Shown: piece after piece, positions 1,306-45,375 of the stretch | How positions within the stretch are numbered: the first letter of the stretch is position 1 | Layout of the letters: every line of letters begins with the position of its first letter | DNA from: Icerya purchasi | Taxonomy: Eukaryota; Arthropoda; Insecta; Hemiptera; Monophlebidae | Direction: 5' to 3' | Length of the DNA stretch: 64,000 nucleotides | NCBI GenBank assembly: GCA_039619475.1 | Contig: CM077115.1 | Coordinates: 27,851,083-27,915,082 of the forward strand | Notes under the pieces: generated by a model | The model's database searches: none | What the model was told of the DNA's origin: nothing | Seen by the model: only the letters and a program-made list of their open reading frames with translations | Position numbers and translations under genes: made by a program

Positions 1306-2572
1306 AACATTTCTCATCTCACTGATACTTGCGCGCATTCGATCACAAAATCATATTGCATTGGCCATTGCTTCATCAAGCATTGCAGCGACGTTACTTG
1401 GTGGTGGACGGACTGCGCATTCAGCACTTAAGTTACCTTTGAATGTTCATACAAATCCCGAAGCAATGTGTAACATAAAGAAGCATTCAGGCATGGCTGA
1501 AGTTTTGAGAAAATGCAAAATTATTATTTGGGATGAATGTACAATGGCCCACAAGCATTCGCTTGAAGCTCTCGACAGGTCCCTGAAGGATATCAAAGAT
1601 AATACTAGGCTTTTCGGTGGTGCTCTACTGCTGCTGTCTGGTGATTTCAGGCAAACATTGCCAGTCATTCCATGTGCGACATATGCAGACGAAGTAAACG
1701 CATGTTTGAAGGAATCTTATCTATGGCGGAGTGTCAGTAAATCATGCCTTACTATCAATATGCGCGTTCAACTTCAAAATGATCCATCAGCGTCAGGATT
1801 CTCTGAACAATTGTTAGACATTGGCAACGGTAAAATTCAACTGTATGAAGATACCCAATTTATTAAATTTCCAGAGAACTTTTGCAACATGGTGGCTACC
1901 AAAGATGAATTAATAAATAGTATCTCTCCAGATTTGAGACATAATTATACTAATCATGAATGGCTACGAGAGCGAGCTATTTTAGCTGCAAAAAATTTAG
2001 ATGTTGACGCCATCAATTTTAAAATACAACAGTCATTGCCTGGTAATGAAATTACATTTAAATCGATTGACACCGTTGTTGATCCTGACGAAGTGGTCAA
2101 CTATCCAGTAGAATTTTTGAATTCTTTAGATTTACCTGGAATGCCACCACATAATTTGCGACTGAAGATTGGCTCACCTATAATTTTGCTTCGAAATTTA
2201 AATGCCCCGAGATTGTGTAATGGCACGCGATTAGTTATAAAAAAAATCATGGGCAACATTATTGAAGCAACTATTTTAAATGGAAAATTCCAAGGTGAAA
2301 TTGTACTTTTACCACGGATCCCAATGATTCCTTCAGATTCACCTATACCATTCAAACGTTTACAATTTCCAATCCATTTGGCATATGCTATGACTATAAA
2401 TAAGTCACAAGGTCAAACGATGACATTTTGTGGCTTAGATTTAGAAAATCCGTGTTTTTCTCACGGCCAATTGTATGTTGTGTGTTCCAGAGTTGGAAAA
2501 CCATCGAATTTGTTTGTTTATACTCCTCATGGATTAACTAAAAATATTGTACATCCAATGGCATTACGATAA
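1271..2572 (+). pseudogene. Helitron Pif1-like helicase domain
   Basis: C-terminal SF1B helicase of the Helitron RepHel protein; an open frame extends upstream to 1133, but only the part from about 1271 is family-like. Motifs in order: Walker A GGTGKTF, an AIASSSIAATLL segment, Walker B IIIWDECTMAH, motif III LLSGDFRQTLPV, a C-terminal NGTRLVIKK segment, then AYAMTINKSQGQT and LYVVCSRVGKP near the end. In intact elements this domain unwinds donor DNA for rolling-circle transposition. The helicase frame is uninterrupted to its stop at 2572, but it is separated from the upstream Rep part by frameshifts. The stop lies 33 bp before the Polinton-like insertion. Confidence 0.9.
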
Positions 2573-2605: not shown

Positions 2606-2989
2606 AGTAGATAGGAAACCTGCGTTCTGGGAGATTAGCCAATCAGGAGCCAGTATTTAGTCACGTGACCACGCCCCTTTTTACTCAACTAATCAAGAGT
2701 CAATACTTAATCATATGATCACACTCTTTCCACATCATTCATCACTGCACCACTATGTTCTACTCCAATTACACTCTTCTGCTCGCCACATCTTCACTGT
2801 TACAAACCTAAATCCGTATATCTCAATGTCTATCACACCCCAAATCAACCACATGCTTTCTCTGGAAGTACCTGCATATGGTCTCCCTCACTTAGTAACA
2901 CCACTCGACCAAAACATGGATTAGGGGAAAGGCTTTAACCAGCCACCTTTAAATTTTTTTTTTCTAACCCTTACTAAGTTGCTTTATGT

Positions 2990-3360
2990 AATCATTCTAG
3001 TTTTTATGTATGTTGATGATATATTTATGATCGTCTAACTGTTGCAATAATTTATGCTAACGGATACTAGTTATTTATGATTATGTATGCTTTGAGAAAA
3101 TGTTTTACTATTGACTACCCACCATTAACTCTTTAAGCCCAATACCAATTCTACCATTTTGTGTGTGTTTATATGTTTGTTGATGATGCATTTACTACTG
3201 CCAAACCAATATAATAATTTGCTAAGATGCTTGTGTGTTTCTATGTACGTTGATGATATATTTATGATTGCCTAACTAATGTAATAATTTGTGCTAACCG
3301 ATACTAGCTGCTCATGTTTGTGTATGCTTTGAAAGTGCTTTATTATAAACTACCCAATGC
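2990..3360. repeat. Subterminal direct repeats, left arm
   Basis: Three diverged copies of a block built on GTTGATGAT, a CTAACTAATGCAATAATTTG-like stretch, and in two copies a GATACTAG...TGTATGCTTTGA segment. They start near 3001, 3170 and 3240. There is no coding content. The mirror copy lies at about 20786-21156. Sequence-specific binding by a replication or integration factor is possible but not shown. Confidence 0.6.
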
Positions 3361-3959
3361 TAATACAACTTGCTAACCCAATATTATTACACCTACCACA
3401 CTTGTTCCAACAAATATGTCTCCAAGAATAATTTAATATGTTGATTAATTGAAATTGGGATAATCTTTGCTATCAATGCTTGTTTGCATGTATATAATTT
3501 GATATATGTCCAACCGAAATAATTGTAATAACAACATATATGTGGGGATATATCTCAGCTCAGAGATTTTTTTCTCGGGTGACCATGTACATGTATGTGT
3601 ACAGTTTCTAATGCAATGAAGCAATATCTATACCCCCAAAATTATTAATCATAACAGATACAACCCGGCTAATATACACCAGTATAGTATAGATTAAAAT
3701 TAGAAAATCAAACTGTCTGCATGAATCAAATATGATGAAGCACACATTCTACCTCTCACCCCCAAATTTTATTATTTGATAGATATAATCGCACTCGCAA
3801 GAATTCCATAATGCACATATTCCCAACCAAATAACACCACCATCTCAATAACTCACCTAAGCTGCTGCACTACCACTTGCTATACAAACACCAGATTAAA
3901 AACCTAATAATTTTTCTGTAACATGACTCCAAACATCACAAACAGGGATTAAGATAAAT

Positions 3960-4260
3960 ATTGTATCATAGAAAGAAGCGCTCAATTTAAACTAAAAGCA
4001 CTCTTTTCACACAAATTACACCATCTAGGGCTAAAATACTCACATTTTAGCACAAAACATCAAATTTTAAAGGAAAAAGACCATTTTACACAAAATATCC
4101 TCATTTTAGACACAAAAACAACAATTTTATAGTAAAATATAACAATTTAGTATAAATGGTACTATTTTAGGCAGAAAGCTCCAAATTTTAATGAAAAATG
4201 CACCATCCTAAGGAAAAGTATTAAATTTTTACTACATACACACTATTTAATTAGAAATAA
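3960..4260. repeat. Degenerate ~30-bp AT repeats, left arm
   Basis: About ten loosely periodic units of roughly 28-32 bp, each with an ATTTTA core and an A-rich spacer, between the PolB stop side and the subterminal zone. Non-coding. The mirror is at about 19886-20186. Confidence 0.5.
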
Positions 4261-4361
4261 CATCACCTCTATACACTATGACTAAATACAAAATATTTTA
4301 AGCTCCCACACATTCTTAGATCTAACAAATTAAAGAAATAAATACAATTGCTAATACAAAA

Positions 4362-4367
4362 TTTATT
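4362..4367 (-). terminator. Candidate poly(A) signal after left PolB
   Basis: AATAAA on the minus strand 67 bp beyond the PolB stop, mirrored exactly at 19779-19784. The surroundings are very AT-rich, so chance occurrence is possible. Confidence 0.4.
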
Positions 4368-4433
4368 ACACAATAAAAACAAAATATACACTGGCTAATA
4401 TTACACTTAATAATAATACATAGCTCCATATAA

Positions 4434-7400
4434 TCATGCAATATACATATTCTTATCTAATATAAATGCTCTTAGTTCAGCTAAAACAACATTAAACTTT
4501 CTATGGAATTTATTATACATTGAATTTCCATAAGCTATTGTATCTACATTATTACTACATATTATTCTTTTATCATCACTACCACTTAATACTACTTTAT
4601 TCTGCTCCAGGGTATACAGTATATGTTTATGACTTTGAATATTGTAATATGTCTTATAATTATCACTTAATTTACCACACACACCATTCACACAATTATA
4701 ATAATCAATAAAATTAAGCTCTTTCTTAATTATAGAAGACTGTACACCTTTACATTTTTTAATTTCTCTATTATCTACAATACTTATAGAATACATTTTT
4801 GGACGCAATCCAACAAATTCACTAATTGGAATACTATTTAATTCATCCTTAAATACACCAAGTTTCTTTTTATTTTCTAGTGAATAGCATGGATGACTTT
4901 CAGGATAATCACTTGTATCAAAATATTGAGCATTATCTTTAATATCTTTATAAAAATCAAGTGATTTAAGTTCATAAATAAGTGAATCAGTATCACAATA
5001 TAAAAGATTAATATTCTTATACATTTTACACATTACATTATAATGAAAATCAAACATTTTTACTTTGCTAATATCTAAAATAGACATCCCAATATAAATG
5101 GGTTTATTAAATTTAATTGTTGAAGGATTTAAATGTACTGCAGCCAGAAATGGCCGTTCACTGAATATTGTTCGATCTTTAAAATTACTTTTACCAACTA
5201 GTTTTGTAAATTTTACTTTATTTGTAATAAGTTGTATATTAATTCTATGTCTAACGTTTTCCATCATTTTACCAAAAACACTATTATTCATAAGCTTCCA
5301 AAAGTTCTTCTCAAACTCATTAGTAGCATGTTTCCGCTGTAGAGTGTTCAAATCAATGTATGGCTTCAACCATGCAGACTGATTGAAACAAATGACTCGA
5401 TGCACACACAGAAGTTTTAACCCTAATGCAATTGCTTGTTTTAAATTTCTATAGTGAATAATATAATTGTACTTATTTTCTAATGTATTAACTAATTTCA
5501 CACATTTTCCAACTGATTTAGCCTCAGGACATAGAGGTAAATCATTATGCACCAAATGTAAACTTGTAGGATACTCCAAATCCACCTCGAGCACATAGCC
5601 AATGGACCCATCATCAGCTATCTCCATAATATTTAATTCTCTTATTTCTTTTTGGCTAAGCCATCTGAAACCATTCATAGGAAGAAATTCACTCATAGCC
5701 CAACCATAAAGGTTATTTGCATCTAAATATGTTATGAAAGTGTTATCTACACCACTGCTACTACCACAATCATCATTACTACTGGAATTATTATTATAAC
5801 TATTGATGTATGGATTTTCTGCCCTGGCATAACGCTTCACACACTGACACATCCCACCACGTATCCCAGCTTCAAAGAATAAAACCATATCATAATCAGT
5901 TAAGAGCTCCAATTCAACCTTTGTTAACTTTAACATTGCCTGGAAGGCTAATCCAGGGGCTGTAAAACTCCATGCAGGATCCAATTTGTATATGTTATAA
6001 CAGACACTTCTAAAGTTTTCAAATACATCTGCTAATAGAAGCACATCTGTCTTTAGATATATATCACTATACTCCCCAAGTGTTTGAACATTTAATGTAT
6101 TCCACACATTCACTGCATGTAAGTAATCTTCGTCACTAATATCTGATTTTGTAAGGGAATTATAGAAATACTCCTCTGCAGGCAAACTTGTTTCATCCAA
6201 TTTTTCCCATGATGACACATATGAATAAGGGAAAACACCCTTTCTACGAAATAAAGGAAGCAAATCAGGCGACGCAATGTTCCTGATGGTATGATGAAGT
6301 GAACTATCAGGCAAATAACTGGATAATTTCTCAAGACTTGACGCCATAAAACGGAATGTATCTATGAATCGTATTTTCATTTTTTCTGAAATACACTTTG
6401 AGAATGATATGTAGCGTTCTTCACTATTTGGTATTACTTCGATGTCCTGATCATTGCACGCTAAATCCCTGATGAATAAATGAGCATCATATCCACTCAG
6501 ATTATGTATGAATACTGGCACAAAATTCGGGAGTTGATACTCTAGGTTACATTTTGAGTGCGCTGCACCTCGAAATTTTCCAGTCAAATGATTATGGTCT
6601 GCAACTTTATCATCATGTAGCACTCCTTCACAAATGTGGCACACCAATGAAGCATCATATTTTTCCAAATCCTCAGGCGTCCACTGTAACGGAGTGTTTT
6701 TCTGATAAATCTTTTCTATTTTTTTAATATCTTTTACCAACCATTCATAGAATTTTTTAGTCGCATTAGGACCTTGATACATTTTAGGTTCCGATGTAAA
6801 ATTAAACCCAACACCTTCTTCACATCTTGATACAATATAATAGCAAAAGCTAAATGCTTCATGCCTCTGTATGGGAATAGTACTAGATGATTTTTGGGGC
6901 CTGTTTTGATTACCACTGTATGAACCATCTTCCATACATTGCCGCTTACAATTTTTCATATTTTCACCATGTCGCTGACTATTTTGATGCTTGCCACCAA
7001 TTTCTATACTTTCATCATCATTATCACTAATAATTTCTCCATCATTGACATCACTATCATATGATTCATCATTTACAGGCTTCAGGATACACTCGAAATC
7101 AGCAAATATGACAAATGGTATAAATTCTTGCTGTTTATACTGTTGGAATTTTAATATTTTATTCTCCTCCGTTGGCATAATGACTGTTGCAGGAGCATTA
7201 TCAGAGCAGCGTTGTGTATGAGCCAGGTACTTAGAATGATCCTGGACATACCATAAACAGCGACGGCATATAAACATCCGATAGTGATCCTTAGTGATCT
7301 GACTTCTTACAAGACGCTCCAAATTTTTTATCCAACAATAGTGTGATTTATCACCTTCAGTTATAAGGAGCAAATCTGTATGATCCACTCGTTCTTCTTT

Positions 7401-8141
7401 ACATATACGAACTGGATAGACAATATTTTTCTCATCCAAACCATAAACATTCACAGATGATTGTAGGTTATTCTTTTCAAATGTACTTATGTCATCCAAT
7501 GATGTGGGGAAAGATACACCACTCCAGTTGTATTTCTTTAACAATGATGTATTCTGCACATAATTGCTTGCATATTCTGGATGATTCACTTTAATATATT
7601 TCGTCAACATTGAATATTTGAAACACATCTGATCAATATTTTTCACATTAATAACAGCCTTTTTCGATGCAATACAGGATGGTAGTGGAATATATGATGA
7701 TGCACGGCTTAGAACATTCCGATGGTTGACACGAATTTCCAGATATTCGATTTTCTTTAATCTCCAACCAGATCCTGTTGCACGCTCAAACTTATCAGCA
7801 AGACTAATAATTTTTCCACATTCTGCCTTGTACCATGCAGAAATATTCTCACCACGAGTGAGTAAATGCACATTAGTTGGGAAGTAAAACTGGCTAGTGA
7901 CCCAGTCTACAAGCCCAACACCTTTAACAAATAGACAGCATAATGACAAATTAACTTTTATTCCAGTACTAAGTCTTCTCTTAATTATCCTGATCACTGT
8001 AGGAGTAATATCAACCAAATACTTTGCAATGTCCATCTGGCATTTATTATTGTTTATAATACGATATGTTGCCAAACGCTTATGATAATGCTTGCTAACG
8101 TTTTTAATAGAAATATTACGTTGAACACCCACTGACGACAT
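4434..8141 (-). CDS. polB: Family-B DNA polymerase (protein-primed type), left copy
   Basis: Intact 1235-aa DNA_pol_B_2-type polymerase with proofreading and polymerase motifs in order: Exo I FADFEC near residue 348, Exo II FIHNLSGYDAHLF near 545-557, Exo III YLKTD near 694, motif A YLDANNLYG near 804, motif B NNSVFGK near 951, motif C YCDTDSL near 1047. Between Exo I and Exo II, at about 500-535, lies a CHIC...DHNHLTGKFRG...CNLEY zinc cluster like endonuclease VII/HNH modules. An upstream C2H2-like CRRC...H...C cluster sits near 295-312. This type replicates linear DNA from a terminal protein in Polintons, adenoviruses and linear plasmids. The start ATG follows a TATAAAG context. It differs from the right copy at residue 102 (Ala here) and 311 (Arg here). 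An AATAAA lies 67 bp past the stop. Confidence 0.95.
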   Translation of the reverse strand: MSSVGVQRNISIKNVSKHYHKRLATYRIINNNKCQMDIAKYLVDITPTVIRIIKRRLSTGIKVNLSLCCLFVKGVGLVDWVTSQFYFPTNVHLLTRGENISAWYKAECGKIISLADKFERATGSGWRLKKIEYLEIRVNHRNVLSRASSYIPLPSCIASKKAVINVKNIDQMCFKYSMLTKYIKVNHPEYASNYVQNTSLLKKYNWSGVSFPTSLDDISTFEKNNLQSSVNVYGLDEKNIVYPVRICKEERVDHTDLLLITEGDKSHYCWIKNLERLVRSQITKDHYRMFICRRCLWYVQDHSKYLAHTQRCSDNAPATVIMPTEENKILKFQQYKQQEFIPFVIFADFECILKPVNDESYDSDVNDGEIISDNDDESIEIGGKHQNSQRHGENMKNCKRQCMEDGSYSGNQNRPQKSSSTIPIQRHEAFSFCYYIVSRCEEGVGFNFTSEPKMYQGPNATKKFYEWLVKDIKKIEKIYQKNTPLQWTPEDLEKYDASLVCHICEGVLHDDKVADHNHLTGKFRGAAHSKCNLEYQLPNFVPVFIHNLSGYDAHLFIRDLACNDQDIEVIPNSEERYISFSKCISEKMKIRFIDTFRFMASSLEKLSSYLPDSSLHHTIRNIASPDLLPLFRRKGVFPYSYVSSWEKLDETSLPAEEYFYNSLTKSDISDEDYLHAVNVWNTLNVQTLGEYSDIYLKTDVLLLADVFENFRSVCYNIYKLDPAWSFTAPGLAFQAMLKLTKVELELLTDYDMVLFFEAGIRGGMCQCVKRYARAENPYINSYNNNSSSNDDCGSSSGVDNTFITYLDANNLYGWAMSEFLPMNGFRWLSQKEIRELNIMEIADDGSIGYVLEVDLEYPTSLHLVHNDLPLCPEAKSVGKCVKLVNTLENKYNYIIHYRNLKQAIALGLKLLCVHRVICFNQSAWLKPYIDLNTLQRKHATNEFEKNFWKLMNNSVFGKMMENVRHRINIQLITNKVKFTKLVGKSNFKDRTIFSERPFLAAVHLNPSTIKFNKPIYIGMSILDISKVKMFDFHYNVMCKMYKNINLLYCDTDSLIYELKSLDFYKDIKDNAQYFDTSDYPESHPCYSLENKKKLGVFKDELNSIPISEFVGLRPKMYSISIVDNREIKKCKGVQSSIIKKELNFIDYYNCVNGVCGKLSDNYKTYYNIQSHKHILYTLEQNKVVLSGSDDKRIICSNNVDTIAYGNSMYNKFHRKFNVVLAELRAFILDKNMYIA

Positions 8142-8670
8142 CTTTATAAATATTGATACAATTACAAATTAAAAGCAACAAAAACTTGAACGCAGGAAAA
8201 CACGTCTAACAACTTATAACACATAGACAAATCAAATAAAAGCCCATCAGACCTCATACTTATAATAAAATGCATACAAAGTTCATAACGCGAAGTAATT
8301 TTAACTATTTCAAAAAAATTATTTAAAAATAAATAATATAAAAAATTTAAGTTTTAAAAATAAAACTGGCAGAATTACTTTAGTTAAAAGCCAAGAATAC
8401 TAAAAAAAAAAAAAATTGATGTGTTGCTTATGTGCAGCAATGTGTACATACACAGCACAATCTAAATATTCCATATTTGATGACAACAGGAGGTGATGAT
8501 GGCTGAACTAACAAAAGATTTTCTGTGAATTAACATATAACATAACAATTGCTAGCAGACTAACATTAAAAATTTCATCAAAACTCACATGTAAATCTTC
8601 TCTATATATACATTTCACAATCTATTTTGATCACAGAGAGTTAATGCTTATTCATCAGCAGTAATATATA
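8142..8670. other. PolB upstream non-coding region, left arm
   Basis: AT-rich stretch upstream of the left PolB start, mirrored at about 15476-16004. It should contain the promoter, but I see no convincing core element. It includes a 13-A run at about 8402 and no ORF. Confidence 0.4.
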
Positions 8671-8717
8671 ATGACACTCATATATCTAAATATCTACATA
8701 TCTACATATATATCTGC

Positions 8718-8757
<40 letters not shown>

Positions 8758-8892
8758 ACATATATACATATATATCTACATATATACATATATATGTACA
8801 TATATACATATATATCTACATATATATATATCTACATATATACATATATATCTACATATATACATATATATGTACATATATACATATATATC

Positions 8893-8937
<45 letters not shown>

Positions 8938-8940
8938 ATT
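8671..8940. repeat. TA/TACATATATA microsatellite, left arm
   Basis: Nested repeats of TATATA, ATCTACAT and GTACATATATACATAT units. The corresponding block in the right arm is 6 bp shorter and arranged differently, one of the few arm-to-arm differences. Confidence 0.9.
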
Positions 8941-10420
8941 AAAAATATGTCATAAGGATAGACAGGAAAATATAAAAACATTATCATTTAAACAATTATT
9001 TAAAAATGTACAAAATTAGTACATCTAAAAGACAAATATTAAACTAATTTATCAAAATTTACTAGAGAAAAGAAAAAAGTACCACAAACTTCAAAGGAAT
9101 AATCAAAAGAGATATATGATTCAATTCAAAACACAATTTTACAACAAACCAGTAATGAATTAACCACAACATTATATCTACAACCACCAATGAACAATAA
9201 AAAATAAATGCATAAGATTTAAAATATCTCCCTCCAAAAATAATGACTACAACACACAAAAAAAAAATAAAATGAAAACATGTAAAGTAATGGAACAAAA
9301 ATGAACTGGAAAATAAGAACAAAGCAGGGGTACAATCAAAATTAAATAATAGAATATAGCAATACAAAAATTAAAGAGTCAATAAAAGACGGGCAAATAC
9401 ACAATAGATGTAAAGAAACTATGATTTGTAAAGTAAAATATAATCAATTACAGATTATTTAATGTATCCAAAGTAAAAATCAACAAATGGAAAATAAAAA
9501 ATTAACAATAACACAATAATAAAATCAGATACAAAACTGACAAACCATAATAAGAGAAGAAAACCATACTCTAAAAACTGGATTTATCAATGGAAACAGT
9601 AAGTAGAGTGATTATACAAATAAATAAATAAAAGAAGTGGAAAAGTAATAAGAACTTGAAAATGCAATCAATTCAAACATTCTAACAAAATAATTAAAAA
9701 AACAATAAAAAGCAATGAACCATGGAGAGAGCACTTTGAATTAAATTAAAAAAATTAATAGGCAAAGTTCACAAGCTCCAAAGATTATAGATTAATATGA
9801 TTAAAGAATAATTAAATATATGTCATAGAAATCCTCAGAAAAATATAAAAACACAGTCTCTTAAACAGTTATTTAAAAACACACAAAATGAATACACCTA
9901 GAAGGCAAATATTAAACTAATTAAACAAAATCTACCACAGAAAAGGAAAAAGTAACATAAAATTCAATGGAATAATCAAAAAAAATATATGATTTGATTC
10001 AAAACACGATTTTGCAACTAACCAGCATTGAAAATAACTGCAGAATTAAATACACGACCATCAATGAGCAATAAAAAGAAATACTTAAGATTTAAAATAC
10101 CTCCTTCAACAAATAATAACCGCAACACACACAAACCTAAAATTGACACATCTAATGTAACGAAACAGAAACAAAGTAGAAAATAAAAAAACAAAAACAA
10201 AGGCATAATTACAATTAAATAAAAGAACATAACACAATACAAAAATTAAAGGATGATACAGATCGCTCAAATATATAATAAACACAAAAGAAACCCCTAT
10301 TTGAAAAGTAAAATATAATAAACTACAGATTATTTAACACACTAGAAAATAAAAAGCAACAAGCGGGGAAATGTAATATAACATAACTACATTGGAAGAA
10401 AAAAGATAAAAGTGTAATGA
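8941..10420. repeat. Two diverged ~0.85-kb direct repeats, left arm
   Basis: The block beginning ATGTCATAAGGATAGACAGG near 8947 recurs, diverged, as ATGTCATAGAAATCCTCAG near 9819. Each block continues through TATTAAACTAATT and a CTCC(C/T)TCAA...AATAATGAC-like segment. Short open frames at 9062-9367 and 10018-10242 are the same part of the two repeats read on the minus strand and are AT-bias hydrophobic translations, so I do not call genes. The mirror is at about 13732-15209. Confidence 0.6.
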
Positions 10421-11402
10421 ATTAGTAATAAAAAATCACTGGATTAGAGAAAATAATTTAAAACCATTAAAATCTCTATTAAACAGACGAAAATAACACA
10501 TATATTAAATTTATAACAACTAAAGATCACGTCCCTAAACACTTCAACTACATACAAAAAAAAAAAAAAGATCGAAAAAGAGTGATATAAAACGGCCAAA
10601 TCGGAAAAAAGCATAAAATTGTAATGAATTATCAATAAAAATAACTGGATCAAAGAAATTGATTTAAAACCATTAAAATCTCTATTAAACAGACGAAAAT
10701 AACAAATATATTAAATTTATAGCAACTTATAAAGATCGCGTCTGTAAACACTTCAACTATATGCAAAAAGATCGAAAAAGAGTGATATAAAACGGCCAAA
10801 TCGAAAGAAAAAAGCATAAAATTGTAGTGAATTAGTAATAAAAATCACTGGATCAAAGAAAATGATTTAAAACTATTAAAATCTCTATAAAACAGACGAA
10901 AATAACAAAATATATTATTTAAAACTGATCATAATTTACTTAATAACAAATATATTAAATTTATCACAACGTTATAAAGATCGCATCTGTAAACACTTCA
11001 ACTACATGCAAAAAAAAAAAAAAAAAAAAGATCGAAAAAAGTAATACAAGACGGCCATATTGGAAGAAAAAAATTATAAATTGTAATGAGTTAGTAATAA
11101 AAAAACACTGGATCAGAGAAAATGTTTTAAAACCATTAAAATCTCTATTAAACAGATGAAAATAACAAATATATTAAATTTATAACAACGTTATGGCATC
11201 TGTAAACACTTCAACTACATTCCAAAAAAAAAAAAAAAAAGATCGAAAAAAGTAATACAAGACGGCCATATTGGGAGAAAAGAACATAAAATTGTAATGG
11301 ATTAGTAATAAAAAATCACTGAATCATAGAAAATGATTTAAAACCATTAAAATCTTTATAAAACAGACGAAAATAACAAAATACATTATTTAAAACTGAT
11401 TA
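10421..11402. repeat. ~207-bp minisatellite, left arm (about 5 units)
   Basis: Tandem units each containing ATTAGTAATAAAAATCACTGG, TAAAACCATTAAAATCTCTA, a CAGACGAAAATAACAAATAT segment, an A-run followed by GATCGAAAAA, and a GGCCAAATCG or GGCCATATTG segment. Unit starts are near 10422, 10628, 10830, 11090 and 11304. The right arm holds about seven, 414 bp more. Confidence 0.8.
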
Positions 11403-11661
11403 TTATTTACTTAATAACAAATAATTTAAATTTATCATAATATTATAAAGATTGTACAAAATAGAAAAAAGATTGCAAAAAAAAAAAGATCGTAAAAACA
11501 TTGCGCTTAGATAAAATACACTGTTGCATAGAAAAGAGAAGAAAAACAGCGCCGGAAGACAAAAATAACAGACCAAACCGGCGGAAGCAACCTGTTTTAT
11601 GTATTTACACACCTGCTCACTAACACAAACACACTAAAAAAAGTAGTCGATAAATGCGGGG

Positions 11662-12076
11662 GAATTGGGTTACTTTCAGACATTAATTATTATACTTATG
11701 TTAATTAATGATCAGTTCGGTTTATCGGAAACGAGCGGGGCGTGTACAGGGCAATTTTGAGGAATTTTGAGGAAATTTTGAGGGAACGGGGTGAATTTTC
11801 AACGTCGGAGTATAAAATTGGGTTACTTAGGTTAGTTTCAGCCCTCTGCACACGTTTAGGGGTTCGGATTACCGGTTTGGAGTGCCTTTTGCTGTTCGGT
11901 TTAGTGGATATGCACAGGAACCGTCCAGGGGAAACTCGGAGGAATCGGAGGAAAATTGGGTGAATTTTGACCACCTGGACATGAATTGGGGTGAATTTAG
12001 TGTTCGGATTACCGGTCTGGGGTGACTTTTCGACTCCGGGACAGGAATTGGGGTTCGGATTAGCGGACGCCCCAGT
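11662..12076. other. 415-bp unique loop at palindrome centre
   Basis: The only non-mirrored sequence of the element, clearly GC-richer than the arms. It contains repeated short motifs: AATTGGGTTACTT at about 11662 and 11816, TTCGGATTACCGG twice plus a TTCGGATTAGCGG variant, and GAATTTTGAGG repeats. There is an AATTAT/TTAATTAAT-rich patch near 11685-11710. Open frames here (11705-11974 minus, 11742-11963 plus) have no recognisable features. It may be a remnant of unrelated sequence captured when the palindrome formed. Confidence 0.75.
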
Positions 12077-12335
12077 CCCCGCTTTTATCGACTACTTTTT
12101 TTAGTGTGTTTGTGTTAGTGAGCAGGTGTGTAAATACATAAAACAGGTTGCTTCCGCCGGTTTGGTCTGTTATTTTTGTCTTCCGGCGCTGTTTTTCTTC
12201 TCTTTTCTATGCAACAGTGTATTTTATCTAAGCGCAATGTTTTTACGATCTTTTTTTTTTTGCGATCTTTTTTCTATTTTGTACAATCTTTATAATATTA
12301 TGATAAATTTAAATTATTTGTTATTAAGTAAATAA

Positions 12336-13731
12336 TAATCAGTTTTAAATAATGTATTTTGTTATTTTCGTCTGTTTTATAAAGATTTTAATGGTTTTAA
12401 ATCATTTTCTATGATTCAGTGATTTTTTATTACTAATCCATTACAATTTTATGTTCTTTTCTCCCAATATGGCCGTCTTGTATTACTTTTTTCGATCTTT
12501 TTTTTTTTTTTTTTTGGAATGTAGTTGAAGTGTTTACAGATGCCATAACGTTGTTATAAATTTAATATATTTGTTATTTTCATCTGTTTAATAGAGATTT
12601 TAATGGTTTTAAAACATTTTCTCTGATCCAGTGTTTTTTTATTACTAACTCATTACAATTTATAATTTTTTTCTTCCAATATGGCCGTCTTGTATTACTT
12701 TTTTCGATCTTTTTTTTTTTTTTTTTTTTGCATGTAGTTGAAGTGTTTACAGATGCGATCTTTATAACGTTGTGATAAATTTAATATATTTGTTATTAAG
12801 TAAATTATGATCAGTTTTAAATAATATATTTTGTTATTTTCGTCTGTTTTATAGAGATTTTAATAGTTTTAAATCATTTTCTTTGATCCAGTGATTTTTA
12901 TTACTAATTCACTACAATTTTATGCTTTTTTCTTTCGATTTGGCCGTTTTATATCACTCTTTTTCGATCTTTTTGCATATAGTTGAAGTGTTTACAGACG
13001 CGATCTTTATAAGTTGCTATAAATTTAATATATTTGTTATTTTCGTCTGTTTAATAGAGATTTTAATGGTTTTAAATCAATTTCTTTGATCCAGTTATTT
13101 TTATTGATAATTCATTACAATTTTATGCTTTTTTCCGATTTGGCCGTTTTATATCACTCTTTTTCGATCTTTTTTTTTTTTTTTTTTGTATGTAGTTGAA
13201 GTGTTTAGGGACGCGATCTTTAGTTGTTATAAATTTAATATATGTGTTATTTTCGTCTGTTTAATAGAGATTTTAATAGTTTTAAATCATTTTCTTTGAT
13301 CCAGTGATTTTTATTACTAATTCACTACAATTTTATGCTTTTTTCTTTCGATTTGGCCGTTTTATATCACTCTTTTTCGATCTTTTTGCATATAGTTGAA
13401 GTGTTTACAGACGCGATCTTTATAAGTTGCTATCAATTTAATATATTTGTTATTTTCGTCTGTTTAATAGAGATTTTAATGGTTTTAAATCAATTTCTTT
13501 GATCCAGTTATTTTTATTGATAATTCATTACAATTTTATGCTTTTTTCCGATTTGGCCGTTTTATATCACTCTTTTTCGATCTTTTTTTTTTTTTTGTAT
13601 GTAGTTGAAGTGTTTAGGGACGTGATCTTTAGTTGTTATAAATTTAATATATGTGTTATTTTCGTCTGTTTAATAGAGATTTTAATGGTTTTAAATTATT
13701 TTCTCTAATCCAGTGATTTTTTATTACTAAT
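12336..13731. repeat. ~207-bp minisatellite, right arm (about 7 units)
   Basis: Mirror of the left minisatellite with two additional units. Two pairs of adjacent units (around 13080-13300 and 13290-13510) are nearly identical, consistent with a recent two-unit expansion or a contraction in the other arm. Confidence 0.8.
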
Positions 13732-15209
13732 TCATTACACTTTTATCTTTTTTCTTCCAATGTAGTTATGTTATATTACATTTCCCCGCTTGTTGCTTTT
13801 TATTTTCTAGTGTGTTAAATAATCTGTAGTTTATTATATTTTACTTTTCAAATAGGGGTTTCTTTTGTGTTTATTATATATTTGAGCGATCTGTATCATC
13901 CTTTAATTTTTGTATTGTGTTATGTTCTTTTATTTAATTGTAATTATGCCTTTGTTTTTGTTTTTTTATTTTCTACTTTGTTTCTGTTTCGTTACATTAG
14001 ATGTGTCAATTTTAGGTTTGTGTGTGTTGCGGTTATTATTTGTTGAAGGAGGTATTTTAAATCTTAAGTATTTCTTTTTATTGCTCATTGATGGTCGTGT
14101 ATTTAATTCTGCAGTTATTTTCAATGCTGGTTAGTTGCAAAATCGTGTTTTGAATCAAATCATATATTTTTTTTGATTATTCCATTGAATTTTATGTTAC
14201 TTTTTCCTTTTCTGTGGTAGATTTTGTTTAATTAGTTTAATATTTGCCTTCTAGGTGTATTCATTTTGTGTGTTTTTAAATAACTGTTTAAGAGACTGTG
14301 TTTTTATATTTTTCTGAGGATTTCTATGACATATATTTAATTATTCTTTAATCATATTAATCTATAATCTTTGGAGCTTGTGAACTTTGCCTATTAATTT
14401 TTTTAATTTAATTCAAAGTGCTCTCTCCATGGTTCATTGCTTTTTATTGTTTTTTTAATTATTTTGTTAGAATGTTTGAATTGATTGCATTTTCAAGTTC
14501 TTATTACTTTTCCACTTCTTTTATTTATTTATTTGTATAATCACTCTACTTACTGTTTCCATTGATAAATCCAGTTTTTAGAGTATGGTTTTCTTCTCTT
14601 ATTATGGTTTGTCAGTTTTGTATCTGATTTTATTATTGTGTTATTGTTAATTTTTTATTTTCCATTTGTTGATTTTTACTTTGGATACATTAAATAATCT
14701 GTAATTGATTATATTTTACTTTACAAATCATAGTTTCTTTACATCTATTGTGTATTTGCCCGTCTTTTATTGACTCTTTAATTTTTGTATTGCTATATTC
14801 TATTATTTAATTTTGATTGTACCCCTGCTTTGTTCTTATTTTCCAGTTCATTTTTGTTCCATTACTTTACATGTTTTCATTTTATTTTTTTTTTGTGTGT
14901 TGTAGTCATTATTTTTGGAGGGAGATATTTTAAATCTTATGCATTTATTTTTTATTGTTCATTGGTGGTTGTAGATATAATGTTGTGGTTAATTCATTAC
15001 TGGTTTGTTGTAAAATTGTGTTTTGAATTGAATCATATATCTCTTTTGATTATTCCTTTGAAGTTTGTGGTACTTTTTTCTTTTCTCTAGTAAATTTTGA
15101 TAAATTAGTTTAATATTTGTCTTTTAGATGTACTAATTTTGTACATTTTTAAATAATTGTTTAAATGATAATGTTTTTATATTTTCCTGTCTATCCTTAT
15201 GACATATTT
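13732..15209. repeat. Two diverged ~0.85-kb direct repeats, right arm
   Basis: Mirror of the left-arm repeated AT-rich blocks. The same short hydrophobic frames are present on the opposite strand (13910-14134, 14785-15090) and are likewise not called. Confidence 0.6.
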
Positions 15210-15214
15210 TTAAT

Positions 15215-15246
<32 letters not shown>

Positions 15247-15384
15247 AGATATATATGTATATATGTACATATATATGTATATATGTAGATATATATGTAT
15301 ATATGTAGATATATATATATATGTAGATATATATGTATATATGTACATATATATGTATATATGTAGATATATATGTATATATGT

Positions 15385-15428
<44 letters not shown>

Positions 15429-15475
15429 GCAGATATATATGTAGATATGTAGATATTTAGATATATGAGTGTCAT
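15210..15475. repeat. TA/TACATATATA microsatellite, right arm
   Basis: Mirror of the left microsatellite, with a different arrangement of TA runs and ATGTAGATATAT units and a net 6-bp shortening. Confidence 0.9.
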
Positions 15476-16004
15476 TATATATTACTGCTGATGAATAAGC
15501 ATTAACTCTCTGTGATCAAAATAGATTGTGAAATGTATATATAGAGAAGATTTACATGTGAGTTTTGATGAAATTTTTAATGTTAGTCTGCTAGCAATTG
15601 TTATGTTATATGTTAATTCACAGAAAATCTTTTGTTAGTTCAGCCATCATCACCTCCTGTTGTCATCAAATATGGAATATTTAGATTGTGCTGTGTATGT
15701 ACACATTGCTGCACATAAGCAACACATCAATTTTTTTTTTTTTTAGTATTCTTGGCTTTTAACTAAAGTAATTCTGCCAGTTTTATTTTTAAAACTTAAA
15801 TTTTTTATATTATTTATTTTTAAATAATTTTTTTGAAATAGTTAAAATTACTTCGCGTTATGAACTTTGTATGCATTTTATTATAAGTATGAGGTCTGAT
15901 GGGCTTTTATTTGATTTGTCTATGTGTTATAAGTTGTTAGACGTGTTTTCCTGCGTTCAAGTTTTTGTTGCTTTTAATTTGTAATTGTATCAATATTTAT
16001 AAAG

Positions 16005-19000
16005 ATGTCGTCAGTGGGTGTTCAACGTAATATTTCTATTAAAAACGTTAGCAAGCATTATCATAAGCGTTTGGCAACATATCGTATTATAAACAATAAT
16101 AAATGCCAGATGGACATTGCAAAGTATTTGGTTGATATTACTCCTACAGTGATCAGGATAATTAAGAGAAGACTTAGTACTGGAATAAAAGTTAATTTGT
16201 CATTATGCTGTCTATTTGTTAAAGGTGTTGGGCTTGTAGACTGGGTCACTAGCCAGTTTTACTTCCCAACTAATGTGCATTTACTCACTCGTGGTGAGAA
16301 TATTTCTGTATGGTACAAGGCAGAATGTGGAAAAATTATTAGTCTTGCTGATAAGTTTGAGCGTGCAACAGGATCTGGTTGGAGATTAAAGAAAATCGAA
16401 TATCTGGAAATTCGTGTCAACCATCGGAATGTTCTAAGCCGTGCATCATCATATATTCCACTACCATCCTGTATTGCATCGAAAAAGGCTGTTATTAATG
16501 TGAAAAATATTGATCAGATGTGTTTCAAATATTCAATGTTGACGAAATATATTAAAGTGAATCATCCAGAATATGCAAGCAATTATGTGCAGAATACATC
16601 ATTGTTAAAGAAATACAACTGGAGTGGTGTATCTTTCCCCACATCATTGGATGACATAAGTACATTTGAAAAGAATAACCTACAATCATCTGTGAATGTT
16701 TATGGTTTGGATGAGAAAAATATTGTCTATCCAGTTCGTATATGTAAAGAAGAACGAGTGGATCATACAGATTTGCTCCTTATAACTGAAGGTGATAAAT
16801 CACACTATTGTTGGATAAAAAATTTGGAGCGTCTTGTAAGAAGTCAGATCACTAAGGATCACTATCGGATGTTTATATGCCGTCGCTGTTTATGGTATGT
16901 CCAGGATCATTCTAAGTACCTGGCTCATACACAACACTGCTCTGATAATGCTCCTGCAACAGTCATTATGCCAACGGAGGAGAATAAAATATTAAAATTC
17001 CAACAGTATAAACAGCAAGAATTTATACCATTTGTCATATTTGCTGATTTCGAGTGTATCCTGAAGCCTGTAAATGATGAATCATATGATAGTGATGTCA
17101 ATGATGGAGAAATTATTAGTGATAATGATGATGAAAGTATAGAAATTGGTGGCAAGCATCAAAATAGTCAGCGACATGGTGAAAATATGAAAAATTGTAA
17201 GCGGCAATGTATGGAAGATGGTTCATACAGTGGTAATCAAAACAGGCCCCAAAAATCATCTAGTACTATTCCCATACAGAGGCATGAAGCATTTAGCTTT
17301 TGCTATTATATTGTATCAAGATGTGAAGAAGGTGTTGGGTTTAATTTTACATCGGAACCTAAAATGTATCAAGGTCCTAATGCGACTAAAAAATTCTATG
17401 AATGGTTGGTAAAAGATATTAAAAAAATAGAAAAGATTTATCAGAAAAACACTCCGTTACAGTGGACGCCTGAGGATTTGGAAAAATATGATGCTTCATT
17501 GGTGTGCCACATTTGTGAAGGAGTGCTACATGATGATAAAGTTGCAGACCATAATCATTTGACTGGAAAATTTCGAGGTGCAGCGCACTCAAAATGTAAC
17601 CTAGAGTATCAACTCCCGAATTTTGTGCCAGTATTCATACATAATCTGAGTGGATATGATGCTCATTTATTCATCAGGGATTTAGCGTGCAATGATCAGG
17701 ACATCGAAGTAATACCAAATAGTGAAGAACGCTACATATCATTCTCAAAGTGTATTTCAGAAAAAATGAAAATACGATTCATAGATACATTCCGTTTTAT
17801 GGCGTCAAGTCTTGAGAAATTATCCAGTTATTTGCCTGATAGTTCACTTCATCATACCATCAGGAACATTGCGTCGCCTGATTTGCTTCCTTTATTTCGT
17901 AGAAAGGGTGTTTTCCCTTATTCATATGTGTCATCATGGGAAAAATTGGATGAAACAAGTTTGCCTGCAGAGGAGTATTTCTATAATTCCCTTACAAAAT
18001 CAGATATTAGTGACGAAGATTACTTACATGCAGTGAATGTGTGGAATACATTAAATGTTCAAACACTTGGGGAGTATAGTGATATATATCTAAAGACAGA
18101 TGTGCTTCTATTAGCAGATGTATTTGAAAACTTTAGAAGTGTCTGTTATAACATATACAAATTGGATCCTGCATGGAGTTTTACAGCCCCTGGATTAGCC
18201 TTCCAGGCAATGTTAAAGTTAACAAAGGTTGAATTGGAGCTCTTAACTGATTATGATATGGTTTTATTCTTTGAAGCTGGGATACGTGGTGGGATGTGTC
18301 AGTGTGTGAAGCGTTATGCCAGGGCAGAAAATCCATACATCAATAGTTATAATAATAATTCCAGTAGTAATGATGATTGTGGTAGTAGCAGTGGTGTAGA
18401 TAACACTTTCATAACATATTTAGATGCAAATAACCTTTATGGTTGGGCTATGAGTGAATTTCTTCCTATGAATGGTTTCAGATGGCTTAGCCAAAAAGAA
18501 ATAAGAGAATTAAATATTATGGAGATAGCTGATGATGGGTCCATTGGCTATGTGCTCGAGGTGGATTTGGAGTATCCTACAAGTTTACATTTGGTGCATA
18601 ATGATTTACCTCTATGTCCTGAGGCTAAATCAGTTGGAAAATGTGTGAAATTAGTTAATACATTAGAAAATAAGTACAATTATATTATTCACTATAGAAA
18701 TTTAAAACAAGCAATTGCATTAGGGTTAAAACTTCTGTGTGTGCATCGAGTCATTTGTTTCAATCAGTCTGCATGGTTGAAGCCATACATTGATTTGAAC
18801 ACTCTACAGCGGAAACATGCTACTAATGAGTTTGAGAAGAACTTTTGGAAGCTTATGAATAATAGTGTTTTTGGTAAAATGATGGAAAACGTTAGACATA
18901 GAATTAATATACAACTTATTACAAATAAAGTAAAATTTACAAAACTAGTTGGTAAAAGTAATTTTAAAGATCGAACAATATTCAGTGAACGGCCATTTCT

Positions 19001-19712
19001 GGCTGCAGTACATTTAAATCCTTCAACAATTAAATTTAATAAACCCATTTATATTGGGATGTCTATTTTAGATATTAGCAAAGTAAAAATGTTTGATTTT
19101 CATTATAATGTAATGTGTAAAATGTATAAGAATATTAATCTTTTATATTGTGATACTGATTCACTTATTTATGAACTTAAATCACTTGATTTTTATAAAG
19201 ATATTAAAGATAATGCTCAATATTTTGATACAAGTGATTATCCTGAAAGTCATCCATGCTATTCACTAGAAAATAAAAAGAAACTTGGTGTATTTAAGGA
19301 TGAATTAAATAGTATTCCAATTAGTGAATTTGTTGGATTGCGTCCAAAAATGTATTCTATAAGTATTGTAGATAATAGAGAAATTAAAAAATGTAAAGGT
19401 GTACAGTCTTCTATAATTAAGAAAGAGCTTAATTTTATTGATTATTATAATTGTGTGAATGGTGTGTGTGGTAAATTAAGTGATAATTATAAGACATATT
19501 ACAATATTCAAAGTCATAAACATATACTGTATACCCTGGAGCAGAATAAAGTAGTATTAAGTGGTAGTGATGATAAAAGAATAATATGTAGTAATAATGT
19601 AGATACAATAGCTTATGGAAATTCAATGTATAATAAATTCCATAGAAAGTTTAATGTTGTTTTAGCTGAACTAAGAGCATTTATATTAGATAAGAATATG
19701 TATATTGCATGA
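16005..19712 (+). CDS. polB: Family-B DNA polymerase (protein-primed type), right copy
   Basis: Mirror duplicate of the left PolB, 1235 aa and intact, with the same exonuclease, endonuclease VII-like zinc and DTDS polymerase motifs at the same residues. The two protein differences, Val at 102 and His at 311, are single transitions and neither touches a catalytic motif. An acidic Asp/Ser/Asn-rich linker at about 355-385 and an Asn/Ser-rich insert near 782-797 just before motif A look like low-complexity loops. The gene reads outward to the right tip. Both copies being open suggests recent activity, or recent duplication or arm homogenisation. No terminal-protein gene is separately visible; in relatives the priming domain is thought to be part of or near the N-terminus of the polymerase, which I cannot confirm here. 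Confidence 0.95.
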   Translation: MSSVGVQRNISIKNVSKHYHKRLATYRIINNNKCQMDIAKYLVDITPTVIRIIKRRLSTGIKVNLSLCCLFVKGVGLVDWVTSQFYFPTNVHLLTRGENISVWYKAECGKIISLADKFERATGSGWRLKKIEYLEIRVNHRNVLSRASSYIPLPSCIASKKAVINVKNIDQMCFKYSMLTKYIKVNHPEYASNYVQNTSLLKKYNWSGVSFPTSLDDISTFEKNNLQSSVNVYGLDEKNIVYPVRICKEERVDHTDLLLITEGDKSHYCWIKNLERLVRSQITKDHYRMFICRRCLWYVQDHSKYLAHTQHCSDNAPATVIMPTEENKILKFQQYKQQEFIPFVIFADFECILKPVNDESYDSDVNDGEIISDNDDESIEIGGKHQNSQRHGENMKNCKRQCMEDGSYSGNQNRPQKSSSTIPIQRHEAFSFCYYIVSRCEEGVGFNFTSEPKMYQGPNATKKFYEWLVKDIKKIEKIYQKNTPLQWTPEDLEKYDASLVCHICEGVLHDDKVADHNHLTGKFRGAAHSKCNLEYQLPNFVPVFIHNLSGYDAHLFIRDLACNDQDIEVIPNSEERYISFSKCISEKMKIRFIDTFRFMASSLEKLSSYLPDSSLHHTIRNIASPDLLPLFRRKGVFPYSYVSSWEKLDETSLPAEEYFYNSLTKSDISDEDYLHAVNVWNTLNVQTLGEYSDIYLKTDVLLLADVFENFRSVCYNIYKLDPAWSFTAPGLAFQAMLKLTKVELELLTDYDMVLFFEAGIRGGMCQCVKRYARAENPYINSYNNNSSSNDDCGSSSGVDNTFITYLDANNLYGWAMSEFLPMNGFRWLSQKEIRELNIMEIADDGSIGYVLEVDLEYPTSLHLVHNDLPLCPEAKSVGKCVKLVNTLENKYNYIIHYRNLKQAIALGLKLLCVHRVICFNQSAWLKPYIDLNTLQRKHATNEFEKNFWKLMNNSVFGKMMENVRHRINIQLITNKVKFTKLVGKSNFKDRTIFSERPFLAAVHLNPSTIKFNKPIYIGMSILDISKVKMFDFHYNVMCKMYKNINLLYCDTDSLIYELKSLDFYKDIKDNAQYFDTSDYPESHPCYSLENKKKLGVFKDELNSIPISEFVGLRPKMYSISIVDNREIKKCKGVQSSIIKKELNFIDYYNCVNGVCGKLSDNYKTYYNIQSHKHILYTLEQNKVVLSGSDDKRIICSNNVDTIAYGNSMYNKFHRKFNVVLAELRAFILDKNMYIA

Positions 19713-19778
19713 TTATATGGAGCTATGTATTATTATTAAGTGTAATATTAGCCAGTGTATATTTTGTTTTTATTGTGT

Positions 19779-19784
19779 AATAAA
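19779..19784 (+). terminator. Candidate poly(A) signal after right PolB
   Basis: AATAAA followed by a T/G-rich stretch 67 bp after the right PolB stop. Placement is good for 3'-end formation, though AT-rich context lowers specificity. Confidence 0.4.
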
Positions 19785-19885
19785 TTTTGTATTAGCAATT
19801 GTATTTATTTCTTTAATTTGTTAGATCTAAGAATGTGTGGGAGCTTAAAATATTTTGTATTTAGTCATAGTGTATAGAGGTGATG

Positions 19886-20186
19886 TTATTTCTAATTAAA
19901 TAGTGTGTATGTAGTAAAAATTTAATACTTTTCCTTAGGATGGTGCATTTTTCATTAAAATTTGGAGCTTTCTGCCTAAAATAGTACCATTTATACTAAA
20001 TTGTTATATTTTACTATAAAATTGTTGTTTTTGTGTCTAAAATGAGGATATTTTGTGTAAAATGGTCTTTTTCCTTTAAAATTTGATGTTTTGTGCTAAA
20101 ATGTGAGTATTTTAGCCCTAGATGGTGTAATTTGTGTGAAAAGAGTGCTTTTAGTTTAAATTGAGCGCTTCTTTCTATGATACAAT
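19886..20186. repeat. Degenerate ~30-bp AT repeats, right arm
   Basis: Mirror of the ATTTTA-cored repeats of the left arm, downstream of the right PolB gene. Spacing is about 30 bp with many substitutions between units. Confidence 0.5.
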
Positions 20187-20785
20187 ATTTATCTTAATCC
20201 CTGTTTGTGATGTTTGGAGTCATGTTACAGAAAAATTATTAGGTTTTTAATCTGGTGTTTGTATAGCAAGTGGTAGTGCAGCAGCTTAGGTGAGTTATTG
20301 AGATGGTGGTGTTATTTGGTTGGGAATATGTGCATTATGGAATTCTTGCGAGTGCGATTATATCTATCAAATAATAAAATTTGGGGGTGAGAGGTAGAAT
20401 GTGTGCTTCATCATATTTGATTCATGCAGACAGTTTGATTTTCTAATTTTAATCTATACTATACTGGTGTATATTAGCCGGGTTGTATCTGTTATGATTA
20501 ATAATTTTGGGGGTATAGATATTGCTTCATTGCATTAGAAACTGTACACATACATGTACATGGTCACCCGAGAAAAAAATCTCTGAGCTGAGATATATCC
20601 CCACATATATGTTGTTATTACAATTATTTCGGTTGGACATATATCAAATTATATACATGCAAACAAGCATTGATAGCAAAGATTATCCCAATTTCAATTA
20701 ATCAACATATTAAATTATTCTTGGAGACATATTTGTTGGAACAAGTGTGGTAGGTGTAATAATATTGGGTTAGCAAGTTGTATTA

Positions 20786-21156
20786 GCATTGGGTAGTTTA
20801 TAATAAAGCACTTTCAAAGCATACACAAACATGAGCAGCTAGTATCGGTTAGCACAAATTATTACATTAGTTAGGCAATCATAAATATATCATCAACGTA
20901 CATAGAAACACACAAGCATCTTAGCAAATTATTATATTGGTTTGGCAGTAGTAAATGCATCATCAACAAACATATAAACACACACAAAATGGTAGAATTG
21001 GTATTGGGCTTAAAGAGTTAATGGTGGGTAGTCAATAGTAAAACATTTTCTCAAAGCATACATAATCATAAATAACTAGTATCCGTTAGCATAAATTATT
21101 GCAACAGTTAGACGATCATAAATATATCATCAACATACATAAAAACTAGAATGATT
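20786..21156. repeat. Subterminal direct repeats, right arm
   Basis: Mirror image of the repeated GTTGATGAT/GATACTAG blocks in the left arm, at the expected mirrored position. Confidence 0.6.
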
Positions 21157-21540
21157 ACATAAAGCAACTTAGTAAGGGTTAGAAAAAAAAAATTTAAAGG
21201 TGGCTGGTTAAAGCCTTTCCCCTAATCCATGTTTTGGTCGAGTGGTGTTACTAAGTGAGGGAGACCATATGCAGGTACTTCCAGAGAAAGCATGTGGTTG
21301 ATTTGGGGTGTGATAGACATTGAGATATACGGATTTAGGTTTGTAACAGTGAAGATGTGGCGAGCAGAAGAGTGTAATTGGAGTAGAACATAGTGGTGCA
21401 GTGATGAATGATGTGGAAAGAGTGTGATCATATGATTAAGTATTGACTCTTGATTAGTTGAGTAAAAAGGGGCGTGGTCACGTGACTAAATACTGGCTCC
21501 TGATTGGCTAATCTCCCAGAACGCAGGTTTCCTATCTACT

Positions 21541-21546
21541 AAATAT
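21541..21546. repeat. 6-bp target site duplication, right copy
   Basis: AAATAT immediately after the right terminus, matching 2600-2605. Helitron 3' sequence continues from here to the CTAG end at 21761. Confidence 0.85.
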
Positions 21547-21720: not shown

Positions 21721-21762
21721 TAAAGACGTCTGTACAGGACAACGTCTGTCGGGTCCGCTAGT
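21721..21762 (+). other. Helitron 1 3' terminal hairpin and CTAG end
   Basis: Short complementary stretches (GGAC with GTCC, GACA with TGTC) precede CTAG at 21758-21761, followed by T. This is the classical Helitron 3' end signal that stops rolling-circle transfer. Confidence 0.75.
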
Positions 21763-21874: not shown

Positions 21875-21939
21875 GATTATCATTTTCATCCGCCGAAATA
21901 TCTTAGTGTATATGAGTATAGTAAAATCGTAATAATATA

Positions 21940-22680
21940 CATAGGCTGTCACAAAGAAGGTGAGGCTAAATTCAGTACAGACAGCCAGGCGCAACGTATT
22001 AGAAACATGCTAGAATAAATGTTTTGTTCATTATCTATCGATCAAGTGCTTGACGAGATTATTTAATTGAAAACGAGCTGCTGTACGACTGTGTAAAAAT
22101 AAGTACTTATACGGGCCCTAACAAGAGTTTTAATAGCGGACAACAAAGTAAATGAAATATACCTATTCAGAATCATTACCGATAAGTAAACAAACATCTT
22201 CTTCAAAATTTGCCCCTTCTTTCACAGTTAAACAAGCGTCCATTTTGCCATTTAGTGAATCTTTTTTAATAATTTACCTTCAGCTATTGCAACGAGAGAC
22301 ACCTGCATCATTATGACAACTTCTTCGTCCGTTGTGAAGTTGCGACCGCATAGGACGGCCTTAAACTGCGGGAAAAGCCAAAAGTCGCATGACGCTAGGT
22401 CTGGACTATTTGGCGAATGAGGGAGAATACGTTTAATTACCTGCTGCCGCTAATGATTCTGAATAGGTATATTTCATTTACTTTGTTGTCCGTTATTAAA
22501 ACTCTTGGTAGGGCCCGTATAAGTACTTATTTTTACACAGTCGTACAGCAGCTCGTTTTCAACGAAATAATCTCGTCGTCAGGCGCTTGTTCGATAAATA
22601 ATGAACAAAACATTTATCCTGTCATGTTTCTAATAGGTTCTGCCTGGCTATCTGTATTGAATTCTTTGCGACAGCTTATG
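21940..22680. mobile_element. Inverted-repeat composite with mariner core
   Basis: Imperfect inverted repeats of about 235 bp (21940-22178 and 22451-22680), both beginning from the outside with CATA(G/A)GCTGTC(A/G)CAAAG, enclose about 270 bp. The core contains a mariner transposase fragment on the minus strand. The arms share long runs such as AAGTACTTATACGGGCCCTA and its complement. It looks like a foldback or non-autonomous element. I see no convincing target duplication, so exact boundaries are uncertain. Confidence 0.6.
22200..22440 (-). pseudogene. mariner transposase C-terminal fragment
   Basis: On the minus strand the sequence reads SPNSPDLASCDFWLFPQF, then a (V/M)xxGRNFTTDEEVV stretch, the third-catalytic-Asp neighbourhood of mariner transposases (YSPDLAP-type motif). 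Only about 60 codons survive before a stop, so it is a relic within the inverted-repeat composite. A second, unrelated mariner with an intact homologous motif occurs at about 61800. Confidence 0.7.
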
Positions 22681-22690
22681 TATAAATGTA

Positions 22691-24816: not shown

Positions 24817-25060
24817 ATTATAATCAAAACAAGATTCTCGCAGAACAATATACAGGAGTAACCAGTTTCATTAATAAATTAGCCGAAAAAAAAATAGCGC
24901 AATTAGTGAAAAGATTATTTTATCTTCCTCGTTTCCTGGTTTAACAAGATTTTACACCAAGAGTTTTGAAGATGCAATGGCTATTGTTCGACGGCTTGAA
25001 TCGCCTGGTTTCTTTATTACTATGACATCCAATCCGAATTGGCCAGAAATAAAATAGGCA

Positions 25061-26035: not shown

Positions 26036-26060
26036 TTTTGGTCCTCCGGGCCGGATTGAA
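26036..26060 (+). promoter_or_regulatory. Candidate primer-binding region of BEL
   Basis: Directly after the 5' LTR the sequence reads TTTTGGTCCTCCGGGCCGG. A TGG a few bases after the LTR is the usual primer-site start; I cannot name the tRNA. Confidence 0.5.
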
Positions 26061-31777: not shown

Positions 31778-31789
31778 GACCCTCAAGGT

Positions 31790-41022: not shown

Positions 41023-41039
41023 AAGTAAAAAATCTTGAA

Positions 41040-45373: not shown

Positions 45374-45375
45374 TA

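Follow-up and report, generated by a model that had tools for sequence, protein, structure and literature searches.

A near-perfect palindromic, Polinton-like element with two protein-primed DNA polymerase genes in Icerya purchasi

Anatomy of the palindromic element

In a 64,000-bp stretch of the Icerya purchasi genome (assembly GCA_039619475.1, contig CM077115.1, positions 27,851,083–27,915,082; hereafter the window, to which positions refer unless stated otherwise), an 18,935-bp element at 2606–21540 was found to be a near-perfect palindrome of two arms and a central loop, with a family-B DNA polymerase (PolB) gene in each arm. The left arm (2606–11661, plus strand, 9,056 bp, starting with AGTAGATAGGAAACC) and the right arm (12077–21540, minus strand, 9,464 bp, ending with GGTTTCCTATCTACT) enclose a 415-bp loop (11662–12076), which has a GC content of 45.8% compared with approximately 29% in the arms. 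A preliminary description had claimed such an 18.9-kb mirrored element with ~9-kb arms and a 415-bp loop, and the end-to-end alignment of the arms bore this out: 9,040 of 9,044 ungapped columns (99.96%) are identical, with four substitutions at 7210/16936, 7837/16309, 11474/12264, and 11655/12083. Among the five insertions or deletions between the arms, three (4, 2, and 12 bp) fall in an AT microsatellite (8679–8934 in the left arm), one is a 1-bp homopolymer difference, and one, 413 bp long, corresponds to roughly two units of a ~203-bp tandem repeat that is present in 2.6 copies in the left arm (10395–10917) and 4.6 copies in the right arm (12822–13757). Chance cannot account for a 9-kb inverted repeat at 99.96% identity, and the structure is real and unusual.

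The element is bordered on both sides by AAATAT (2600–2605 and 21541–21546, plus strand), a 6-bp match that has a chance of 4.2e-4 at one fixed place given the base composition of the flanks. Its outer termini are identical and inverted, AGTAGATAGG...CCTATCTACT, and of the AG...CT type. The inverted match between the arms runs 17 bp past 2606/21540, an extension that we take as AT-rich chance similarity; the border was set at 2606/21540 because the duplication and the AG...CT ends lie there. To the left, a PIF1-type helicase gene (1136–2572, plus strand) ends with its stop codon 27 bp ahead of the left AAATAT, and to the right, 215 bp separate the element from GGGTCCGCTAG at 21751–21761, which we take to be a Helitron-like 3′-end. 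With a helicase gene on one side and such a 3′-end on the other, the element appears to lie inside a presumed Helitron, which is the likely target that received it. No empty site was found in the three stretches matched by the Helitron helicase among the viral contigs.

These borders also bear on whether the palindrome could be an assembly artefact, either a folded read with a missed adapter or neighbouring or allelic elements misjoined at the loop, given that palindromes are a known class of long-read artefact. A folded read would have mirrored the flanks as well, whereas the two flanks have no similarity to each other, one carrying the helicase gene and the other the Helitron-like 3′-end, and matching 6-bp duplications stand at both borders. 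Moreover, the arms were evidently resolved separately, because they differ by the 413-bp repeat block, the four substitutions, and the microsatellite lengths. We therefore hold an artefact to be very unlikely.

Polymerase genes and gene content

As the preliminary description had stated, each arm holds an intact, outward-facing PolB gene, at 4434–8141 (minus strand) in the left arm and 16005–19712 (plus strand) in the right arm, both encoding 1,235 aa. The two copies differ at two codons, A102V and R311H; both differences are nonsynonymous, and codon 311 adjoins Cys312, which is invariant in a PolB alignment (A1). Both fold and sequence relatives place the polymerase in the protein-primed type, and the PolB of a Ladona dragonfly adintovirus is 47% identical over the region compared. 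The N-terminal part may, suggestively, contain candidate terminal-protein and OTU-like-protease domains: Cys173 and His267, ahead of the exonuclease domain, are invariant in 27 rows and located at the expected helix and strand.

Searching viral contigs with alignment A1 and with another PolB alignment, A3, retrieved the same two loci, the metagenomic contigs L001 and L002, from 38 and 42 stretches, respectively. The collections scanned contain few or no insect genomes, and within them the mirrored architecture was found in none of the five candidate stretches among the viral contigs searched with PolB and in none of 15 stretches of genome contigs, while a 20-base end of the element had no match in the viral contigs. 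Within the window, the element and its ends were found nowhere but in the palindrome, apart from two end matches with three mismatches, which are at chance level. Contig L001 has one PolB, accompanied by an rve integrase and an A32-like ATPase. The adintovirus-like L002 encodes a Phospholip_A2_4 domain protein at its positions 4319–4759 and, at 5414–8311, a long protein that has a T4 tail-fibre-like domain and, below the cut-off, a Peptidase_S74 match. No inverted repeat of at least 40 bp was found in the examined parts of the two contigs, but these parts leave out one end of each contig and the contigs may themselves be incomplete, so terminal inverted repeats (TIRs) may be missed there.

Apart from PolB, no gene was recognised in the element. 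PolB is the only ATG-started open reading frame (ORF) of at least 120 aa in the whole element, which is the scope at which the right arm was covered, and the left arm and loop hold no non-PolB ORF above 128 aa. Between 2606 and 12300 there are 47 non-PolB stop-to-stop ORFs of at least 50 aa; Pfam was run on ten of these, the other 37, which include microsatellite frames and frames inside PolB, staying outside the scan, and returned nothing credible, a single Leptin match (E 0.03) being under the cut-off and taken as chance. When 22 of the 24 ORFs listed for L001 and L002 were compared with the left arm and loop by tblastn, the two PolBs matched and one other gave E 0.26, which we take as noise. 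The L001 integrase found nothing there, and the retroviral-type integrase expected of a Polinton was not seen in the left arm and loop. Nor were packaging ATPase, protease, or capsid genes detected by the ORF listings, Pfam, and tblastn, and there is no ORF of capsid size; among these three, Pfam named only an ATPase in a comparator (L001), the rest having been queried as unnamed ORFs of the two contigs. Gene remnants below the search threshold and short-exon spliced genes unlike those of L001 and L002 would escape such searches.

The inner inverted repeat and the 455-bp centre

At the boundary between arms and loop lies a 20-bp inverted repeat, AGTAGTCGATAAATGCGGGG (11642–11661, plus strand), whose first bases form the (AGT)2 motif of Maverick ends and whose partner (12077–12096, minus strand) ends with ACTACT. 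The repeat, AGTAGTCGATAAA[T/A]GCGGGG, is imperfect, with its mismatch (11655/12083) at the seventh base from the loop. Thus, one of the four arm substitutions falls within these 20 bp, for which the post hoc chance is about 0.003. In a survey of vertebrate Mavericks, (AGT)2//(ACT)2 is given as the commonest end motif (PMC8097293).

The palindrome centre at 11642–12096 can be viewed as a 455-bp, mini-Maverick-like unit with 20-bp TIRs, an AGTAGT start, and an ACTACT end. Its flanks, AAAAAA and TTTTTT, are an inverted and not a direct duplication, and insertion of this unit after the palindrome had formed was rejected for that reason. The same flanks speak against two half-site integrations of the 455-bp unit into sister molecules, or another fusion made by an integrase, as the source of the palindrome. 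The exact AGTAGT//ACTACT at the inner ends would suit such a fusion, but it would take two separate events, on two molecules, at the same position, and we consider it scarcely credible.

Possible origin of the mirrored structure

What was observed directly comprises the ends, the 6-bp duplication, and a single protein-primed polymerase gene present in two intact copies, with no other gene recognised. We lean towards reading the element as a symmetric form derived from a Polinton/Maverick- or adintovirus-like one; this form probably arose by fold-back copying of one half and owed its insertion to an integrase supplied in trans. While protein-primed replication was under way, a strand already containing copies of one end and of the PolB gene would fold back on the 20-bp imperfect inverted repeat and copy itself back to its start, so that the half with the integrase, ATPase, and capsid genes would be replaced by a mirror of the PolB half. 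The fold-back stem could have been the TIRs of the 455-bp mini-element residing in the parent, perhaps with a 3′-end generated by an integrase; that the parent may have held such a mini-element with stem-forming TIRs is suggested by the exact AGTAGT/ACTACT at the inner repeat. With the same origin at each terminus and a polymerase of its own, the product could replicate as linear DNA in the manner of a plasmid, and an integrase from a complete relative would then insert it in trans into the Helitron. The 6-bp duplication and the AG...CT ends are consistent with an insertion carried out by a Polinton-type integrase (PMC8097293); as no such enzyme was detected in the element, it would have come from elsewhere. 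The position of the mismatches is what fold-back copying would leave: sequence past the primer seed is perfect because it was copied, whereas mismatches of the old repeat can survive beside the loop, and the mismatch at the seventh base from the loop matches this expectation.

Several points weigh against this reading. The steps of the fold-back mechanism are inferences from one copy; neither a parental element nor a second copy was seen in the window and the scanned collections; and the supply of an integrase in trans is entirely inferential. Snap-back copying leaves no mark peculiar to it, and the arguments from the junction were made after the fact. AGTAGT itself is no rarity, with four occurrences on the plus strand of the element and 12 across the window, and the outer ends read AGTAGA, one base away from an exact (AGT)2. 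In L002, Pfam recognised neither an integrase nor a packaging ATPase among 11 of the 12 ORFs listed, so the set against which gene loss can be judged is mainly L001. As for the polymerase, Pfam DNA_pol_B_2 does not match it and matches one of the 16 members of alignment A1, and none of the structural matches that would favour the OTU-like reading is significant (OTUD3 at rank 27, E 0.2).

Alternatively, palindromic and self-complementary PolB transposons might form a stable lineage whose normal, transmitted genome is the mirrored form, replicated from two identical ends, with the arms held identical by one copying the other through a hairpin. Both PolBs are intact and outward-facing, the arms are nearly identical across 9 kb, and the whole unit has a single end pair and a single 6-bp duplication and was thus probably mobilised as such. 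Against this stand the single known copy, the lack of a relative of the same architecture in the scanned collections, and the unrepaired mismatch beside the loop, which speaks against ongoing homogenisation there; the observations need no more than one event. We consider such a lineage unlikely. Its wider form, in which near-complete-hairpin transposons with the replicase in both arms but without integrase and capsid genes would live as parasites of complete Polintons or adintoviruses, is equally doubtful; such elements would be the equivalent, in eukaryotes and with integration, of defective-interfering symmetric genomes. That the element represents a new palindromic family is unproven, and a one-off snap-back derivative accounts for the anatomy without one.

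A single end pair, a single duplication, and a mirrored interior would likewise result if an ordinary Polinton already in the chromosome had lost one half and gained an inverted copy of the other in its place, through a template switch, break-induced replication, or gene conversion out of a TIR, for which the TIRs could have provided the starting homology. Such a rearrangement must, however, have stopped exactly inside the element, spanning from the TIR to the internal inverted repeat over 9 kb, and have spared both ends and the duplication, and is in our judgement quite unlikely.

Comparison with known systems

The Polinton-like origin proposed in the preliminary description was upheld by the protein-primed PolB, the 6-bp target duplication, and the AG...CT inverted ends, which the element shares with Polintons/Mavericks and Adintoviridae, as it does a size within the Maverick range (12.7–24.6 kb for intact vertebrate Mavericks; PMC8097293). 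Its claim that the architecture is unusual for Polintons also held, since the inverted repeats of the element are ~9 kb long versus 46–1,447 bp for the TIRs of 134 intact vertebrate Mavericks in the same source (PMC8097293). Unlike Polintons, the element carries PolB twice and has no detected integrase, ATPase, protease, or capsid gene. Thus, among the defining features of Polintons, the 6-bp duplication and the AG...CT ends are present, while the integrase, the capsid/ATPase/protease genes, and the TIR length depart from the definition; because the integrase, the capsid and ATPase genes, and the TIR length fail it, the element is better called a derivative than a Polinton member in good standing. 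No palindromic Polinton was found among the matches listed in the open-access literature, as covered by titles and abstract openings, with most subscription journals outside. Adintoviridae are defined by capsid genes and an adintovirus-type PolB within one genome; the PolB of the element is related to that of the Ladona adintovirus, and no capsid gene was detected beside it.

Structural parallels are the symmetric recombinants of adenoviruses and the palindromic deletion derivatives of the linear plasmid pGKL1, extrachromosomal genomes in which one end is mirrored to give two identical origins and for which a fold-back origin has been proposed. The element resembles them in the mirrored end and the two identical origins; unlike them, it is integrated, has a 6-bp duplication, and keeps its polymerase genes intact. 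Invertrons are free linear DNAs with protein-capped ends, whereas the element is known here in integrated form only. Cytoplasmic or mitochondrial linear plasmids of the pGKL1 type are likewise capsid-less protein-primed replicons with their own protein-primed PolB (pPolB), which carries a fused priming domain (PMC11071308); in contrast, the element lies within a chromosome, flanked by a target duplication. Bidnaviridae offer a Polinton-derived pPolB in an insect virus, but, by the same source (PMC11071308), they are single-stranded DNA viruses descended from insect parvovirids, and no capsid gene was found in the element. Teratorn is a loose parallel in having both outer and inner TIRs that border long inverted repeats, yet it is a piggyBac-herpesvirus element of 41–182 kb.

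Free linear replication of Polintons and the action of their integrase in trans rest largely on indirect reasoning. If the fold-back reading is true, it suggests that protein-primed replication, as proposed for Polintons, gives rise to fold-back products like those of adenoviruses and linear plasmids, and that such products are able to integrate. The element would then be evidence from a genome that Polintons, ahead of integration, replicate by protein priming as free linear DNA, and that a Polinton integrase is able to act in trans on ends alone. If palindromic copies proved numerous, they would represent a new parasitic life style among Polintons.

Other features of the window

The window is dense in transposable elements, and no RNA family at gathering score and no tRNA were found in it. 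A BEL/Pao retrotransposon (25673–32170), with 363-bp direct repeats that are 98.9% identical (25673–26035 and 31808–32170), starts at the end of a Helitron_like_N ORF (25058–25678) and was apparently inserted in a second Helitron; its best matches are two proteins at 59% and 56% identity, the best named ones being from scale insects and mealybugs (Parthenolecanium corni, 52%; Planococcus citri, 48%), which points to a scale insect or a related insect as the probable host. A Tc5/pogo-type DDE transposase frame (43615–45165; HTH_Tnp_Tc5 and DDE_1) sits between an endonuclease/reverse transcriptase frame (40980–43379) and an open frame at 45361–46740, which may be the rest of the same long interspersed nuclear element, the transposase being apparently a nested insertion. 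Further downstream, a perfect 1,018-bp direct repeat (55092–56109 and 58559–59576; 2,449 bp between the copies), possibly the long terminal repeats of a recent non-autonomous element, encloses a 70-bp minisatellite (56474–57089) and a 361-codon open frame (57335–58420) with Pfam matches only below the cut-off. Just right of the palindromic element, 21936–22684 contains an inverted repeat of about 245 bp with 86% identity.
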